Positions 1-5,375 of a stretch of 5,991 nucleotides of DNA are shown here, in pieces (position 1 is the stretch's first letter; every line of letters begins with the position of its first letter). The DNA comes from a bacterium. GTDB taxonomy: Bacteria > CG2-30-53-67 > CG2-30-70-394. The notes beneath the pieces are model-generated. The model was not told the DNA's origin, did not search any database, and was given only the letters and a program-made list of their open reading frames with translations. The translations under genes and the position numbers were made by a program. The stretch covers positions 1 through 5,991 of the forward strand of contig JAJRSX010000116.1 in NCBI GenBank assembly GCA_024278555.1, read 5' to 3'.

Positions 1-858
1 GGCGCCGTCGTCGCCCATGCCGGTGAGGAGGATGCCCACCGACGCGCCACCAAAGATTTGCGCGGCGGTGTTGAAGAGGCAATCCACGGAGGGTCGGTGA
101 CGGTTGACCGGTGCCGCCTCCTGCAGACGTGCGGTTGGACGTGCCGCCGTCCCCGCCACCTCCAGGTGGACGTGGCCGGGAGCCACCAGGGCGACGCCGG
201 GCTCCAGTCGGTCACCGTCGGCCGCCTCCTTCACCCGCACGGCACTGTGCTCGTTGAGGCGGGCGGCGAAGGAGGCGGTGAAGCCGGCGGGCATGTGCTG
301 GACGATGGCGATGGGAGGCGATGCCTCCGGGAGGCGCGCGAGGATGGAGGCGATTGCCTCGGTGCCGCCGGTGGAGGCGCCGATCATCACCGGCCGCAGG
401 CGAGAGCGCTCCCCCACCGAGTCGAGGATGCTGCCCGCGCCCCGGTGGCCGAGCTGGCCGGTGGCGCTCATCGCCGCGGCGCGCACCTGGCGGCGTAGCT
501 CGCCGCCGAAGCGCGCCCACAGGCGCGGATGCGGCAGCGTGACCTTGCCCACCACCCCGACGGCGCCCTGGGCGATCGCGTCGAGGCAGGCGTGGCCGTC
601 CTCCTGGGTGACGGTGGAGACCACTACCACCGGCATCGGGCGCCCGGCCATCAGCTTCTTCAGGAAGGTGAGGCCGTCCATGCGCGGCATGAGGAGATCG
701 AGGGTGATGACGTCGGGTGTCACCCGGTCGAGGAGCCGCCGGGCGACGATCGGATCCTCCGCCTCCGCCACCACGCGGATATCACCCTTGGCCTCGAGCT
801 GCTCCCTGAGGCGGACACGGGTGGCGGCGTCGTCGTCGATGATGAGGACGGAGGTCAT
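1..858 (-). CDS. cheB: CheB-type chemotaxis methylesterase with receiver domain (second copy, C-terminus beyond window)
   Basis: The frame is open for all 286 codons, from ATG at 858 to the left edge. An N-terminal receiver (about 1-120) has acidic residues D8/D9 and the phospho-acceptor D54 in TLDLLMP. It also has S81 and K105. A linker (about 121-154) leads to the methylesterase domain with the visible catalytic set S162 (GASTGG), H188 (IVQHMP) and D284 (GMGDDGA). The family role is cytoplasmic, phosphorylation-activated removal of methyl groups or amides from receptor glutamates/glutamines. The receiver is unusual: D10 replaces the usual Ser after the Asp pair, L56 replaces the usual Glu two residues after D54, and V106 replaces the Pro after the conserved Lys. 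It closely resembles the other CheB in the window, so the two are paralogues. No canonical ribosome binding site is seen. The start is set by family alignment. About 60 C-terminal residues are probably missing beyond the edge. Confidence 0.95.
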   Translation of the reverse strand, partial: MTSVLIIDDDAATRVRLREQLEAKGDIRVVAEAEDPIVARRLLDRVTPDVITLDLLMPRMDGLTFLKKLMAGRPMPVVVVSTVTQEDGHACLDAIAQGAVGVVGKVTLPHPRLWARFGGELRRQVRAAAMSATGQLGHRGAGSILDSVGERSRLRPVMIGASTGGTEAIASILARLPEASPPIAIVQHMPAGFTASFAARLNEHSAVRVKEAADGDRLEPGVALVAPGHVHLEVAGTAARPTARLQEAAPVNRHRPSVDCLFNTAAQIFGGASVGILLTGMGDDGA

Positions 859-878
859 GGGGGGCTCGCTTCGCTCGC

Positions 879-915
879 GGGGATGGGGGGGTGAGGGATG
901 GGGGGTGAGGGGGTG
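879..915. repeat. G-rich heptad-like array, copy A
   Basis: On the plus strand the units read GGGGATG, GGGGGGTG, AGGGATG, GGGGGTG and AGGGGGTG, that is seven- or eight-base units of the form RGGG(G)RTG. Since the genes run on the minus strand, the mRNA would be C-rich here and the template strand G-rich. The array matches the one at 1649-1683. The variable G-run lengths look like slippage. Confidence 0.7.
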
Positions 916-916
916 G

Positions 917-935
917 CGCCGGCCTGCGGCCGGCG
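917..935. other. Perfect 8-bp GC hairpin with TGC loop
   Basis: CGCCGGCC (917-924) and GGCCGGCG (928-935) are perfect inverted repeats around a three-base loop. No T-run follows on either strand, so this is not a standard intrinsic terminator. It is the counterpart of the hairpin at 1687-1704, at the same distance from the module start. Confidence 0.75.
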
Positions 936-973
936 ATGATCTCTTCGTGGCCGGCTTTCGTCGTCATATTCAT

Positions 974-988
974 CAGCCCGAAGGGCTG
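974..988. other. GAA-triloop hairpin (module copy A)
   Basis: CAGCCC (974-979) and GGGCTG (983-988) pair perfectly around GAA (TTC on the coding strand). The second position pair is A-T here and G-C in the matching hairpin at 1783-1797, which keeps the stem intact. The flanking TCCTT is shared. No poly-T follows in the direction of transcription. Confidence 0.75.
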
Positions 989-993
989 TCCTT

Positions 994-1021
994 CCCTAAT
1001 CCCTAGCCCCTAACCCCTCGG
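994..1021. repeat. Heptad array CCCTAAT-type, telomere-like
   Basis: Four consecutive seven-base units read CCCTAAT, CCCTAGC, CCCTAAC and CCCTCGG on the plus strand. On the coding strand this gives four runs of three or four G separated by TTA, CTA and ATTA (994-1017), which satisfies the usual G-quadruplex pattern in DNA or mRNA. It lies between the two hairpins downstream of cheD. No function can be assigned from sequence. Confidence 0.7.
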
Positions 1022-1041
1022 GAATCGCGTAGCGATTCCCG
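1019..1041 (-). other. Perfect 10-bp hairpin abutting the cheD stop codon
   Basis: CGGGAATCGC (1019-1028) and GCGATTCCCG (1032-1041) form a perfect inverted repeat with a three-base loop. In the transcription direction the stem starts at the base immediately after the cheD TAG stop. The following sequence is AGGGGTTAGG rather than a U-tract, so a Rho-independent terminator is unlikely. An mRNA 3'-end stabiliser or a partial block to transcription into the next gene is possible (inference). Confidence 0.8.
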
Positions 1042-1623
1042 CTAAAACAGCTCCACATCCATCTTCTCCGGCGCCTGGACGGCCGCCGCCTCCTTGGCCC
1101 GGTACTGGGCCTCTGTCGTCTGCACGCTCGACACCTCGGTGGGTGCAAGGTGGCGCACCTTGACCTTGCCGGTGTCGAGGAAGAAGCAGATCCGCCGTCC
1201 GGCGTTGCCGCCGAGATCGGCACAGGCGATGGGGATCCCCTCGTTGGCGAGCATCTCGCGGACAAACCGCTCGTTCGCCGCCGCCACCGACCGCTCCGGC
1301 GCCACCCCTGCCATCACGTTACCGGCCCCAAAGACCTTCGCCTGCATGAGGGATCGGGCCGAGCCGCGGTGCATCATGTCGTTGATCAACAGCTCCATGG
1401 CATAGAGGCCGTGGCGGCCGGTCGCCTCCTCAAGCGACACGTTCGCACCGGGGAGCATGAAGTGGTTCATCCCACCGATGCGGTGGTGCTGGTCCCAGAG
1501 GCAGACCGCCACGCACGAGCCGAGGACCGTCTCGATGAGCTCCGGACCGGAGCCCACGTGGTACTCGCCCGCCATGATCACGCAGGAGGGCCGCGCGAAC
1601 GCGGTGTTGTGTCGGAACTCCAT
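1042..1623 (-). CDS. cheD: Chemoreceptor glutamine deamidase CheD
   Basis: This is a 193-residue protein. CheD proteins deamidate specific glutamines of methyl-accepting chemotaxis proteins to glutamate, and in some bacteria also partner with CheC. The family signature is clear: LGSCVAV carries the nucleophile C37, and GGMNHFMLP carries the catalytic H54. The 17-residue Cys-His spacing is as in Thermotoga CheD (C27/H44). Further conserved blocks are VFGAGNVM (about 97-104) and the GGNAGRRICFFLDTGKVKVRHL region (138-159). A charged tail after residue 160 ends in DVELF, as I recall for many proteobacterial CheD proteins. The ATG at 1623 gives a normal N-terminus. A later Met17 would also leave the core intact. 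No strong Shine-Dalgarno is seen, only GCGAGCGAAGCGAGC 11 bases upstream. It is flanked by two CheB genes, which fits a receptor-adaptation role. No CheC is in the window. Confidence 0.96.
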   Translation of the reverse strand: MEFRHNTAFARPSCVIMAGEYHVGSGPELIETVLGSCVAVCLWDQHHRIGGMNHFMLPGANVSLEEATGRHGLYAMELLINDMMHRGSARSLMQAKVFGAGNVMAGVAPERSVAAANERFVREMLANEGIPIACADLGGNAGRRICFFLDTGKVKVRHLAPTEVSSVQTTEAQYRAKEAAAVQAPEKMDVELF

Positions 1624-1648
1624 GGGTCGTTTAGCTCGCTTCGCTCGC

Positions 1649-1683
1649 GGGGATGGGGGGTGAGGGGTGGGGGATGAGGGGAT
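1649..1683. repeat. G-rich heptad array, copy B
   Basis: Five successive seven-base units on the plus strand read GGGGATG, GGGGGTG, AGGGGTG, GGGGATG and AGGGGAT. They match the array at 879-915 and directly follow the same GCTCGCTTCGCTCGC word. The G-rich strand is the template strand for cheD. Confidence 0.75.
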
Positions 1684-1686
1684 GGT

Positions 1687-1704
1687 CGGCCGCTGGCACG
1701 GCCG
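1687..1704. other. GC hairpin (module copy B)
   Basis: CGGCCG at 1687-1692 and again at 1699-1704 can pair across a six-base loop, with a possible extra T-G wobble. It is followed by GCGAT as in copy A. It is positionally equivalent to 917-935 but not identical in sequence. No T-run follows. Confidence 0.6.
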
Positions 1705-1732
1705 GCGATTCTTTCGGTGATACGACTCCCCC

Positions 1733-1760
1733 TTTCTACTTTCTACTTTTTACTTTTTGC
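1733..1760. repeat. T-rich heptad array (TTTCTAC / TTTTTAC)
   Basis: Four exact seven-base units read TTTCTAC, TTTCTAC, TTTTTAC and TTTTTGC. This is the only clearly AT-rich patch in the window. On the coding strand it reads as A-rich GTAGAAA/GTAAAAA units. Short heptanucleotide tandem repeats between genes are known from cyanobacteria and other bacteria. Their role is unclear. Confidence 0.8.
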
Positions 1761-1778
1761 GTTTCCTCCATCGGCACC

Positions 1779-1786
1779 TTATCGGC
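1779..1786 (-). promoter_or_regulatory. Possible sigma-28 (FliA) -10 box upstream of cheD
   Basis: The minus strand reads GCCGATAA, identical to the enterobacterial FliA -10 consensus, about 155 bases upstream of the cheD start. FliA-type promoters commonly drive chemotaxis genes. The -35 region is poor: the best partial match is an AAG at 10-base spacing. Four of the eight bases belong to the GAA-loop hairpin, so chance is a real alternative. Confidence 0.25.
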
Positions 1787-1797
1787 CCGAAGGGCCG
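1783..1797. other. GAA-triloop hairpin (module copy B)
   Basis: CGGCCC (1783-1788) and GGGCCG (1792-1797) pair perfectly around GAA. Relative to 974-988 both bases of the second pair differ (G-C instead of A-T), while the rest of the stem, the loop and the flanking TCCTT are unchanged. It lies 23 bases beyond the stop codon of the first cheB. There is no U-tract in the direction of transcription. Confidence 0.75.
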
Positions 1798-1820
1798 TCC
1801 TTGCCTGCCTTTCGATCTCC

Positions 1821-2870
1821 CTACCTCCCTCCCCCCACCAGTCCGGCCCCACACCGGGCCGCCGCCTTGAGGATCGCGTGGGGGATACGCTCCAGCGGCA
1901 GCTCGACGGTCGCCGCGCCGAGCCGCACCGCGGCGCGCGGCATGCCGTAGACAATAGAGGTCGCCTTATCCTGGACGATGGTGTGGCTGCCGGCGTCGCG
2001 CATCGCCTTGAGGCCGGCGGCGCCGTCGGCCCCCATGCCGGTGAGCAGGACCCCCACCGCGTCGCTCTGCGCGACCCGGGCGACCGAGTGGAAGAGGACG
2101 TCCACCGCCGGCCGCTGGTGGTGCACGCGCTCGCCCGTGGAGACCACCAGTCGCCACCCCCCCGGCCGCCCGGCCACCTCCAGGTGGGTGTCGCCGGCGG
2201 CGACCGCCACCATGCCGGGCTGCAGCGGCTGGCCGTCCGTCGCCTCGAAGCAGTGTGGGGCCATCTCCCGGTCGAGGTGGCGAGCGAAGGAGGCGGTGAA
2301 GCCGGGCGGCATGTGCTGGACGATTGCGATCGGCGGGCACGCCGCGGGCATCCGTGCAAGCACCGCGCGGATCGCCTCGGTGCCGCCGGTGGAGGCACCG
2401 ATCACGACCACCTTTCCCCCGTCCGCCACCGCCGCCAGACGTGTATCCGAAACCACCGCCTGATGGCTGGACACCCGGGCGGTGGCCGCGGCACGCACTT
2501 CGCGGACGAGGTTGCCGGCAAAGTCCTCCAGTGAGCTTGGGAAGTCCGGCGTCGGCTTCCCCACCACCCCCACCGCGCCGATCTTCAACGCCTCGAGGGT
2601 CGCGTCCGCGCCCCGCTGGGTGAGGGTCGAGGCCATCACCACCGGTGTCGGCCGCCCGGCCATCAGCTTGCGCAGGAAGGTGATGCCGTCCATCCGCGGC
2701 ATCTCCACGTCGAGGGTGATGACGTCGGGAGAGACACGCTCGAGCAGTCGGCGGGCGACAAAGGGGTCCTCGGCCTCGGCCACCACTTCGATGCCCGGCT
2801 CCGCCTCCAGGAGGCCGCGGAACTGGGCGCGAATCGCCGCGGAGTCATCGATGATCATGACCTGAATCAT
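1821..2870 (-). CDS. cheB: Chemotaxis response regulator protein-glutamate methylesterase CheB
   Basis: This is a complete 349-residue CheB, the usual family length. The receiver (about 1-118) has D8/D9, phospho-acceptor D54 in TLDVEMPRMDG, S81 and the K105-P106 pair. A linker (about 119-152) leads to the methylesterase domain with catalytic S160 (GASTGG), H186 (IVQHMP) and D282 (GMGADG). It removes methyl groups from receptor glutamates, and deamidates some glutamines, after phosphorylation by CheA. It acts in the cytoplasm at receptor arrays. ATG at 2870 matches the family N-terminus. A GAGG lies nine bases upstream, and the gene starts 48 bases after the receptor 2 stop, so co-transcription is likely. 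All residues expected for phospho-control are present, unlike in its paralogue at 1-858. The C-terminal GAGLVGGGR tail is glycine-rich. Confidence 0.97.
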   Translation of the reverse strand: MIQVMIIDDSAAIRAQFRGLLEAEPGIEVVAEAEDPFVARRLLERVSPDVITLDVEMPRMDGITFLRKLMAGRPTPVVMASTLTQRGADATLEALKIGAVGVVGKPTPDFPSSLEDFAGNLVREVRAAATARVSSHQAVVSDTRLAAVADGGKVVVIGASTGGTEAIRAVLARMPAACPPIAIVQHMPPGFTASFARHLDREMAPHCFEATDGQPLQPGMVAVAAGDTHLEVAGRPGGWRLVVSTGERVHHQRPAVDVLFHSVARVAQSDAVGVLLTGMGADGAAGLKAMRDAGSHTIVQDKATSIVYGMPRAAVRLGAATVELPLERIPHAILKAAARCGAGLVGGGR

Positions 2871-2886
2871 GGGGGCTCGCCTCGCT
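2871..2886 (-). promoter_or_regulatory. Leader word AGCGAGGCGAGCCCCC upstream of cheB
   Basis: The sequence just before the cheB ATG is nearly the same as that before the second cheB (AGCGAAGCGAGCCCCCC, 859-875), and related to AGCGAAGCGAGC before cheD (1634-1645). GAGG within it may serve as a ribosome binding site here. It could be a reduced relic of the intergenic module or a shared translation-initiation element. Confidence 0.5.
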
Positions 2887-2902
2887 TGTTGAGGTTGATG
2901 CG

Positions 2903-2918: not shown

Positions 2919-5375
2919 TCAGTGCGCTTTGTCGAAGTTGTCGCTCTGGAAGAAGTCGCACTTCATGCAGTTCGCCTGCTTCTTGGCGAAGGAGCCCTGG
3001 ACCTCGCCGCCGCACAGAGTACCGGTGAGGTAGGCGCAGTCGCGGCCGTGGTCCGGGTAGGCCGGGCAGACGCCGAGCTCCGCCGCCTTGGCGCCGCCCT
3101 CCTCGCGACCGCACTTCTTGAACTCCCAGCAGTTGAGGGGGCGATCCCCCGTACCCGGGGCGCCGCGCTTCGGCTGCAACACGATGGCCACGTCACCCGC
3201 GGGCGGGACGGCGACCGTGGCACCGCCACCCGCGCTGGAGGCGCCGCTCGTCCCATCCGGAAGACGGAAGCGGTTCACCTCCCTGCTCATGTCGCGGGCG
3301 TGGGTGGCGAGGAGGTCGGTGGCCTCGGCCGACTGGCTGATGAGGGCGGCGTTCTGCTGGTTGAGGGTGTTCATCTCGGCCACCGCCCGGTTCACCTCCT
3401 CCACCCCCTTTGCCTGCTCCTCGTTGGCGGTGGAGATCTCCTCGACCACGGTGGACGCCTTGCGCACCGACTCGAGGATCTCGGTAAGCCGCGCTCCGGA
3501 GGCGTTCACCAGCTCCGCCCCCTTGTCGACCTTCTCCACCGTGTCGGCGATCAGCCCCTTGATCTCCGCCGCCGCCTTGGCCGAGCGCCGGGCCAGGTTC
3601 CTGACCTCGGCGGCGACCACCGCGAAGCCGCGCCCGTGCTCGCCGGCGCGCGCCGCCTCCACCGCCGCGTTGAGCGACAGCAGGTTGGTCTGGAAGGCGA
3701 TCTCGTCGATCACCTCGATGATGTCGCGGATCTTCCCCGACGCCTCCTCGATCTTCCCCATGGCGGCGACCGCCTCCCCCACCACGCTCCCGCCGCCCTC
3801 CGCCACCTCGCGGGCGGCGGCGGTGAGCTCGTTCGCCTCATGGGCGTTGGCCGCGTTCTGCCCGACGGTGGCCGCCATCTCCTCCATGGCCGAGGCGGTG
3901 TCCTCCAGAGAGGTGACCTGGCGCTCGCTGCGGCCGCTGAGGTCCTGGTAGCCGGCGGCGATCTCCATCACCGCCTTCTCCACCTCGCCAGAGGCAACGC
4001 GGATGCTGGCGAGCGGCTCGGCGACCGAGTCGAGCATCGCGTTCATCCGCCGCACCTGCGACCGGTGCTCTTCGCTGGTGAAGAGCTCCGGGTCGATGCG
4101 CAGGTCGAGGCGACCCGAGATCATCCCCTCCACCAGCCGCCGGGTCTCGTGCTCCAGCCGCACCTCCTCGGTCACCTCCTTCCACTCCACTACGGTAGCG
4201 ATGTACTCCCCTGCCTGGTCGAAGGCGGCGCTGGAGGTGTGGCGGAAGGTGAGGTCGCCGACCTCGATCTTCGCCGTGTACGGGAAGTTGGAGGGATCGT
4301 CGAGGATCTTCCGTACCCGCTCGGGATCGGTGTGGAAGTCGTCGATACACCGCCCCACCAGGGCGTCGGCACGGAAGGTCGGGAACAACTTGCGCAGCTC
4401 CCCCTCCAGCCGCTTGAAGGTGGCGTGGGCCGCGTCGTTCATGTAGGTGATGACCCGGTTGCGGTCCGCCACCATGATGTTGGCCGACGCCCCATCGAGG
4501 GCCACCTTCACCGCCACCGCCTCGTTCGAGGAGCGCAGCGCCTCGGTCATCTGATTGAAGGCGGCGGCGACATCACCGAGCTCGTCCGCGCGGTCGCACG
4601 CCACCTCCGCCTGCAGGTCACCGGAGGCGACCCGGCGAACCGCCGCCACCAGCTCCGCCAGCGGGGCGAGGACGCGCCCCTGCACGCCGCGTCGTAAGAG
4701 GAAGGCCGCCGCCACGAAGATCAGGATGACCATGAGGCCAAGGAGACGGAGGCGCGCCACGCCCGAGGCGACGTCGGTGGCGGCGGCGCCCGCCGTCGCC
4801 AGAGCCTCCTCCATGGCGGTGAGCTGATCGGCGACGATGGGGTCGAGCTCCTTGGAGAGCGCCTCCGCTGCCTCATCGAAGGAGGCCATCGCCTGGTTGC
4901 CCTTGCTCGGCCCGCCATCGACGTAGGCGCGGGCCATCTCCCGGCCCGTCTGATAGTAGGCGTCGAAGGCCCCCTTGAGTTTGTCGAGGCGTGCCGCCAT
5001 GGCGCCGTCGCCCGCGTCGCGGTAGTGGTCACGGAAGACGGCGAGGAGGCCACGGAAGGCCTTGGCGTGGACCTCCGCCTCGTCGAATCCGTCGGCGAGG
5101 CCGTCGGCGGCGCGGGTGGCGGAGATGTCGGTGAGGAACTGCTGCACCTGGACCACGTGCAGCCGCATCGCCTCCCCCTTCATGGCCAGGTCCACTGCGT
5201 GGTCGCGCACCTCGCTGATCGCAGTGTTCGCCGTGACGCTGTCCTCGACCGCGCGGTGGGTTACCCACCACCCGGCGACCGCCAGGCTGCCGATGACCAG
5301 CGCCATGGTGGTGAAGATGGTGGCCACCGCCGAGGCGAGGGAGCCCTTATATGTGAGTCGCTGGATCCAGCTCAT
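2919..5375 (-). CDS. Methyl-accepting chemotaxis protein with PAS domain and C-terminal cysteine-rich domain
   Basis: This 818-residue transmembrane receptor controls CheA. Its parts are: TM1 about 16-36; a mostly helical periplasmic domain about 37-208 with [15 protein letters not shown] (75-89) and [17 protein letters not shown] (144-160); TM2 about 209-227; HAMP about 228-286; PAS about 287-403; and a HAMP-like linker about 411-475. The signalling hairpin is about 476-705, with its tip at 556-595 ([18 protein letters not shown]). Candidate methylation positions are E499, Q506 and E652/E653. A Gly/Ala/Pro linker (706-747) joins a tail with C749, C755, C770, C780, C788, C803 and C806. That tail resembles what I recall as the 'two-CW' domain of some receptors, possibly metal or redox binding. 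No CheR-binding pentapeptide is present. ATG at 5375 is preferred because AGAGG lies six bases upstream. A GTG at 5429 would add 18 residues and overlap the upstream gene. cheB follows after 48 bases. Confidence 0.95.

Follow-up and report, generated by a model that had tools for sequence, protein, structure and literature searches.

A high-copy composite repeat that lies between genes, with copies on both sides of cheD in a che operon

The window, a stretch of bacterial DNA of 5,991 nucleotides, contains an operon in which cheD lies between two cheB paralogues (window 1–2870). The spacers on the two sides of cheD resemble each other, which raises the question of whether they belong to the che genes, to a local duplication or to a family spread through the genome. 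An earlier note on this DNA had offered a dispersed intergenic family and a conserved structured leader as the two options, with hits at che genes only as the sign of a specific regulator. At window positions 2919–3180, the MCP has a Cys-rich C-terminal tail that includes CMKC and is possibly a metal-binding module.

The two spacers next to cheD

Copy 1 of the composite element lies on the minus strand at 859–1041 and takes up the entire spacer from the cheD stop codon (1042) to the cheB start (858). Its start-proximal word, GCGAGC-GAA-GCGAGC (GCTCGCTTCGCTCGC; 864–878, minus strand), is an imperfect hairpin with a C-GNA-G triloop and tandem G.A, located 5 nt before the cheB ATG. The word is followed by a G-rich heptad arm (879–915, plus strand; C-rich on the sense strand), the first GC hairpin, HP1, which reads CGCCGGCC-TGC-GGCCGGCG (917–935), a linker related to GATGATCTCTTTCGTGGGTGGCTTCCATCGGCATCTCAT (936–973, plus strand), and the second hairpin, HP2, CAGCCC-GAA-GGGCTG (974–988), with TCCTT behind it (989–993). 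The C-rich heptad arm at 994–1018 (plus strand) is the inverted partner of 879–915, and a stop-proximal end hairpin, CGGGAATCGC-GTA-GCGATTCCCG (1019–1041), abuts the cheD stop codon.

Copy 2 (1624–1820, minus strand) occupies the spacer from the second cheB (stop 1821) to cheD (start 1623). It has the same word, GCTCGCTTCGCTCGC, ahead of cheD (1634–1648, minus strand), a G-rich heptad arm (1649–1685, plus strand), an imperfect HP1 (1687–1704) and an HP2, CGGCCC-GAA-GGGCCG (1783–1797), again followed by TCCTT (1798–1802). Its linker is interrupted by an array of TTTCTAC heptads (about 1730–1757, plus strand), and the match to the family is confined to the ends of the linker. The word, the G-rich heptads, the GC hairpin and the GAA-loop hairpin with TCCTT, all of which had been reported for both spacers, are in their places, and the GC hairpin does begin 53 bases into each module, at 917 and 1687. 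Modules 1 and 2 are 85% identical over their first 40 nt (repeat family D13), and the similarity is far above chance. The two related modules are therefore real, but copy 1 had been drawn too short, and it extends through the right-hand C-rich heptads and the end hairpin.

A duplication of a cheB-spacer segment could be imagined as the source of this likeness, as two cheB paralogues lie in the window. The alike spacers, however, precede cheB and cheD rather than both cheB genes, and the family is genome-wide; the genome search refuted this explanation and leaves it with practically no probability. A search for CheD in seven related genomes found no match. A broken-off cheB-MCP end was found in the genome of the sister species, where the contig stops inside cheB.

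Copies in the genome and in a sister species

The source genome is a 3.06-Mb assembly of 211 contigs, and a search of it with positions 864–1041 gave 54 matches, including module 2 at E = 3e-16. It was compared with one other species of the genus (the sister species) and with six genomes from a second family within the class. For the 86-nt core, a model was built from 33 aligned copies, and genome matches were accepted at E values up to 0.001. With 150 candidates scored per genome, the counts are lower bounds: at least 112 core copies in the source genome and at least 27 in the sister species. No copies were found among the candidates scored in the six genomes of the same class. The exact word GCGAGCGNAGCGAGC, with N free, occurs 51 times in the source genome, and its reversed pattern is found there a single time. 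A search of the sister species for the exact word gave 0 matches, and degenerate forms are visible there. The core is thus common to the genus, and the end word in its exact form is species-specific. Further copies accordingly exist, every mapped one is intergenic and their neighbour genes are unrelated, which bears out a dispersed family and rules out a che-specific regulator. Neither of the two outcomes that the earlier note had named as refuting it occurred.

Gene neighbours were mapped on stretches of the source genome that amount to ~612 kb, with a home-made codon-usage gene caller. None of the 92 mapped copies lies inside a gene; co-directional genes flank 84 of them, convergent genes 6 and divergent genes 2. 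Compared with other spacers of at least 100 nt, the co-directional bias has an odds ratio of 7.6 (P = 3e-9), and between co-directional genes the two orientations occur at 64:20 (P = 1.6e-6). The word ends 0–10 nt upstream of the start codon in 35 of 56 cases. The frequencies of start and stop features near core copies are approximate, as the gene caller favours Shine-Dalgarno motifs and ATG starts: a Shine-Dalgarno-like tetramer precedes 18% of the genes downstream of a core versus 51% of the others, ATG is the start in 44 of 46 genes with a core upstream, and TAG or TGA is the stop in 68 of 69 genes preceding a core. In several copies, the stop codon itself reads as a piece of the array of heptads.

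These border features would suit a cis-acting structured RNA under selection in operon spacers, in which base pairing would join the G-rich arm to the C-rich one within the mRNA. The hairpins would shield the ends of the upstream message or tune the access of Rho, and GCGAGC-GNA-GCGAGC before the ATG would aid a start that lacks a Shine-Dalgarno motif. Co-directional placement, the skewed orientation, the closeness of the word to the start, the few Shine-Dalgarno-like tetramers and the nearly exclusive use of ATG all fit this explanation. On the other hand, the neighbour genes are unrelated, copies are missing at orthologous sites, and the exact word is absent from the sister species.

Among 36 spacers that are orthologous in the two species, the core is present in both in 5, in the source species only in 5 and in the sister species only in 3; some of the "absent" cases are degenerate copies. 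Clean pairs of occupied and empty sites were found at two insertions flanking a tRNA gene on contig C192, in the divergent C68/C141 spacer, in the C69/C12 spacer and in the cheB-MCP spacer. At the C192 site, hairpins, arms and core are present or absent as one unit. The cheB-MCP spacer has a core copy in the sister species, whereas that of the source species is 48 nt long without a core and holds C-rich sequence and word remnants, among the latter a degenerate word ahead of the second cheB start (2875–2888, minus strand). These remnants suggest a possible loss of the core in the source species. The occupied and empty pairs defined no target-site duplication and no sharp ends, and the ends of the element vary.

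The identity of a copy to its nearest counterpart has a median of 79% and never exceeds 86%, although a short-read assembly may lack copies that are nearly identical. This ceiling of identity speaks for old copies or slow turnover and not for current bursts. Where an orthologous site is occupied in both species, the two copies resemble each other no more than random pairs do, and gain and loss are therefore indistinguishable.

Anatomy and folding of the element

Along the direction of transcription, the order of parts is the stop codon, a GC hairpin with a TNC loop (often 0–4 nt after the stop codon), G-rich heptads, HP2, a conserved linker of ~35 nt, HP1, C-rich heptads, GCGAGC-GNA-GCGAGC, about 5 bases (mostly C) and the ATG. 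Order and spacing are constant over dozens of copies. The heptads are of GGGGTGA and GGGATGG types and vary widely, and arms and words are also found without a core. As judged from its letters, the G-rich arm would allow G-quadruplex formation.

The stems of the two core hairpins have means of 6.1 and 5.3 bp, compared with 1.2 in shuffles. On one strand, the loops of HP2 are mostly GNA (GAA 22, GCA 20, GGA 6, GTA 5) and those of HP1 mostly TNC; the GNA loops of the two hairpins are thus on opposite strands, and the two halves are therefore of opposite polarity. The outer pair of HP2 switches from A-U to G-C (17 and 12 copies). RNAalifold recovered HP2 alone from a mixed core alignment and missed HP1 because there are two HP1 subtypes with shifted loops. 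Spacers are enriched in GNA-loop and TNC-loop hairpins, with 38 in 31 kb versus ~5 after shuffling. The edge word is a near-hairpin, whose two GC-GA-GC arms would pair via tandem G.A and close a C-GNA-G triloop, and its variable base is the N of this triloop (A 28, C 25, T 13, G 4). C-GNA-G triloops are unusually stable in DNA. A variable base at this very position would be difficult to account for if the hairpin had never been of importance.

It may be asked whether these parts form one element at all, because heptad arrays could arise by slippage and hairpins separately, in the same spacers that tolerate both. The wide variation of heptad types, the existence of arms and words without a core, and the same strand polarity in the heptads of Xanthomonas and Nostoc, which stand alone (PMC4692102), agree with such an origin. 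It is nevertheless improbable, given the constant order and spacing, the whole unit present or absent at the C192 site, and the matching of arms: inverted arms match better within a copy than between copies (25.5 vs 20.9, SD 0.76), a difference reached in 0 of 2000 permutations.

Two other palindromes were seen in spacers of the source genome. One, GAGGAGCAGCGGAAATAG...CTATTTCCGCTGCTCCTC, with CACGAAAG repeats, breaks HP2 of one core copy (locus L181 on contig C192, in the spacer that follows the gene with its end at locus position 1931). The other, AGGAGTCTGTCGGACTTATGCGATCGT...GTCCGACAGACTCCTA, is a long dispersed palindrome present in several spacers (L132, C164:33001–53000, near positions 9407 and 17354).

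In the fold of copy 1, G-arm and C-arm form a long stem with the hairpins inside it (z = -3.4), and copy 2, with its interrupted linker, folds no better than shuffles (z = 0.6). In 50 spacers with a core, the sense strand has a median folding z of -3.2 and the antisense strand one of -3.1, versus -0.9 in spacers without a core. Such strong folding is again in line with the structured RNA described above. However, the two strands fold equally well, which points to palindromic DNA and not to RNA selected on one strand; the GNA loops of HP1 and HP2 are on opposite strands, and no Rfam match was found. A structured RNA under selection is therefore considered unlikely. When the core consensus was aligned to its own reverse complement, it scored no better than shuffles (8.0 vs 7.0, SD 2.8). 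A terminator scan found terminator-like sites only on the plus strand of copy 2 and 0 on the strand of the genes, and an intrinsic terminator was rejected for this reason.

It could also be speculated that the dispersed element is a modular cassette for operon junctions, which would supply the stop context upstream (TAG or TGA from the heptads), an insulating stem of G-arm and C-arm, and a GNA hairpin at the Shine-Dalgarno position that would drive translation of the following gene in place of a Shine-Dalgarno motif. This idea is held to be quite improbable.

Relation to known repeats and possible origin

The earlier note knew of no named family that fits, and an exact fit was indeed not found, with no Rfam match and no GTAG tag; near kinds do exist, namely REP/REPIN repeats and strand-polar G-rich heptads. 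In Rfam, no match reached the gathering level, and five copies gave chance-level matches only, so that a known RNA family was rejected. A hammerhead ribozyme was also dismissed, because a change of the HP2 pair to G-C disrupts the hammerhead-like CTGATGAG...CGAAAC boxes and there is no stem II.

REPIN, BIME and GTAG-REP repeats (Bertels and Rainey 2011, PMC3116915; Di Nocera 2013, PMC3733652) are similar to the element in their short GC hairpins of opposite orientation with a spacer, their extragenic position and their number of more than 100 copies. As regards the inverted doublet, the likeness lies in the opposite loop polarity of HP1 and HP2; as an inverted sequence repeat, the core does not rise above shuffles. 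They too are mostly found between unidirectional or convergent genes, and some are inside larger palindromes. In contrast to them, the element lacks a GTAG or CGTC tag, an adjacent RAYT and near-identical copies, and it has heptad arms as well as hairpins at its ends, directly adjoining start and stop codons. No GTAG tag was found at the hairpin foot in the core alignment, where GGTG/GGAC lies outside and GATGA inside the hairpins. CGTC REPs are defined by a CGTC/TGTC/CCTC tag, a stem of 8–9 bp, a loop of 4–5 and a CCA tail (PMC3733652), whereas the element has stems of typically 5–8 bp, 3-nt loops and YGTCC after HP2, without a CCA-tail arrangement.

The source genome has four RAYT-like Y1_Tnp genes (L142–L145), and no core copy was found in their flanks. 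These flanks carry GGGGTCAGG-type ends at three of the genes and GGGGACAGGACCC ends at the fourth. The RAYT-like genes are apparently unlinked to either hairpin family, apart from one GTAG word at L145:1968. A separate canonical GTAG REP/REPIN family (GTAGGAGCGGGTTGTACCCGCGA...) is present with 81 exact matches in the source genome versus 2 in the sister species (for example, C48:17358–17442 and C110:23682–23764), and some of its copies are inserted in the C-rich arms of the element. As the element has no GTAG tag, no adjacent RAYT and no copies more than 86% identical, it is not filed as a REP, and canonical REP identity was rejected on the lack of a tag and of any copy beside a RAYT.

The GGGNATC and GGGGAYT G-quadruplex heptads of Xanthomonas and Nostoc lie within 50 bp after stops (sense) or before starts (antisense) (Rehm 2015, PMC4692102). 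They are rare between divergent genes, and 70–75 inverted pairs are recorded in Xanthomonas (PMC4692102). The arms of the element follow the same rule, being G-rich near ORF ends with the same strand polarity and avoiding divergent spacers; unlike those heptads, the ones here are of GGGGTGA/GGGATGG types, and an 86-nt core with two hairpins lies between the inverted arms, with further hairpins as caps. Inverted GGGAATC pairs around short interiors were also found in a Luteimonas genome (G098; C60:4166–4215, C68:2523–2592 and C81:14612–14679). They lie between co-directional genes such as nusG-rplK, directly after the stop codon, and the interior of one pair holds AAAAGC-TCTG-GCTTT. The TAACTGA heptads of Beggiatoaceae are located a few bases before start codons, where ribosome-binding sites are rare (MacGregor 2015, PMC4679880). 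The element shares with them the repeats just before starts and the scarcity of ribosome-binding sites, but TAACTGA heptads are single direct arrays without inverted arms or a hairpin core. Like MITEs, the element is short, non-autonomous, palindromic and intergenic; it has inverted arms but, unlike MITEs, no constant terminal inverted repeat, and no target duplication or parent transposon was found. What is new is the composite architecture and the exact fit between stop and start codons.

Taken together, we lean towards the view that this is an old, high-copy, non-autonomous, REPIN-like intergenic repeat whose arms are heptads of the Xanthomonas/Nostoc G-quadruplex type. The unit of this REPIN-like repeat is a quasi-palindrome, made up of two GC hairpins of opposite polarity, a linker, inverted heptad arms, and GNA/TNC hairpin caps at the gene borders. 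As to its function and its mobiliser, we infer the following course. The repeat may have spread as folded single-stranded DNA through an HUH enzyme (RAYT/TnpA-REP-like) acting in trans. The arms would then lengthen and drift by heptad slippage. Most of the surviving copies would be those that do no harm, located between co-transcribed genes rather than in promoter regions, and they would be carried in the mRNA as a structured spacer.

The element unites two repeat classes that have been studied apart, the hairpin repeats of REP type and the strand-polar G-rich heptads. Should heptad arrays prove to be arms of inverted units between genes, the symmetry of such units would account for their puzzling polarity, which is G-rich after stops and C-rich before starts. 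This idea is testable in Xanthomonas, for which inverted heptad pairs are on record. In addition, with hairpins abutting start codons, one may ask how genes that lack a Shine-Dalgarno motif are translated in this little-studied lineage.
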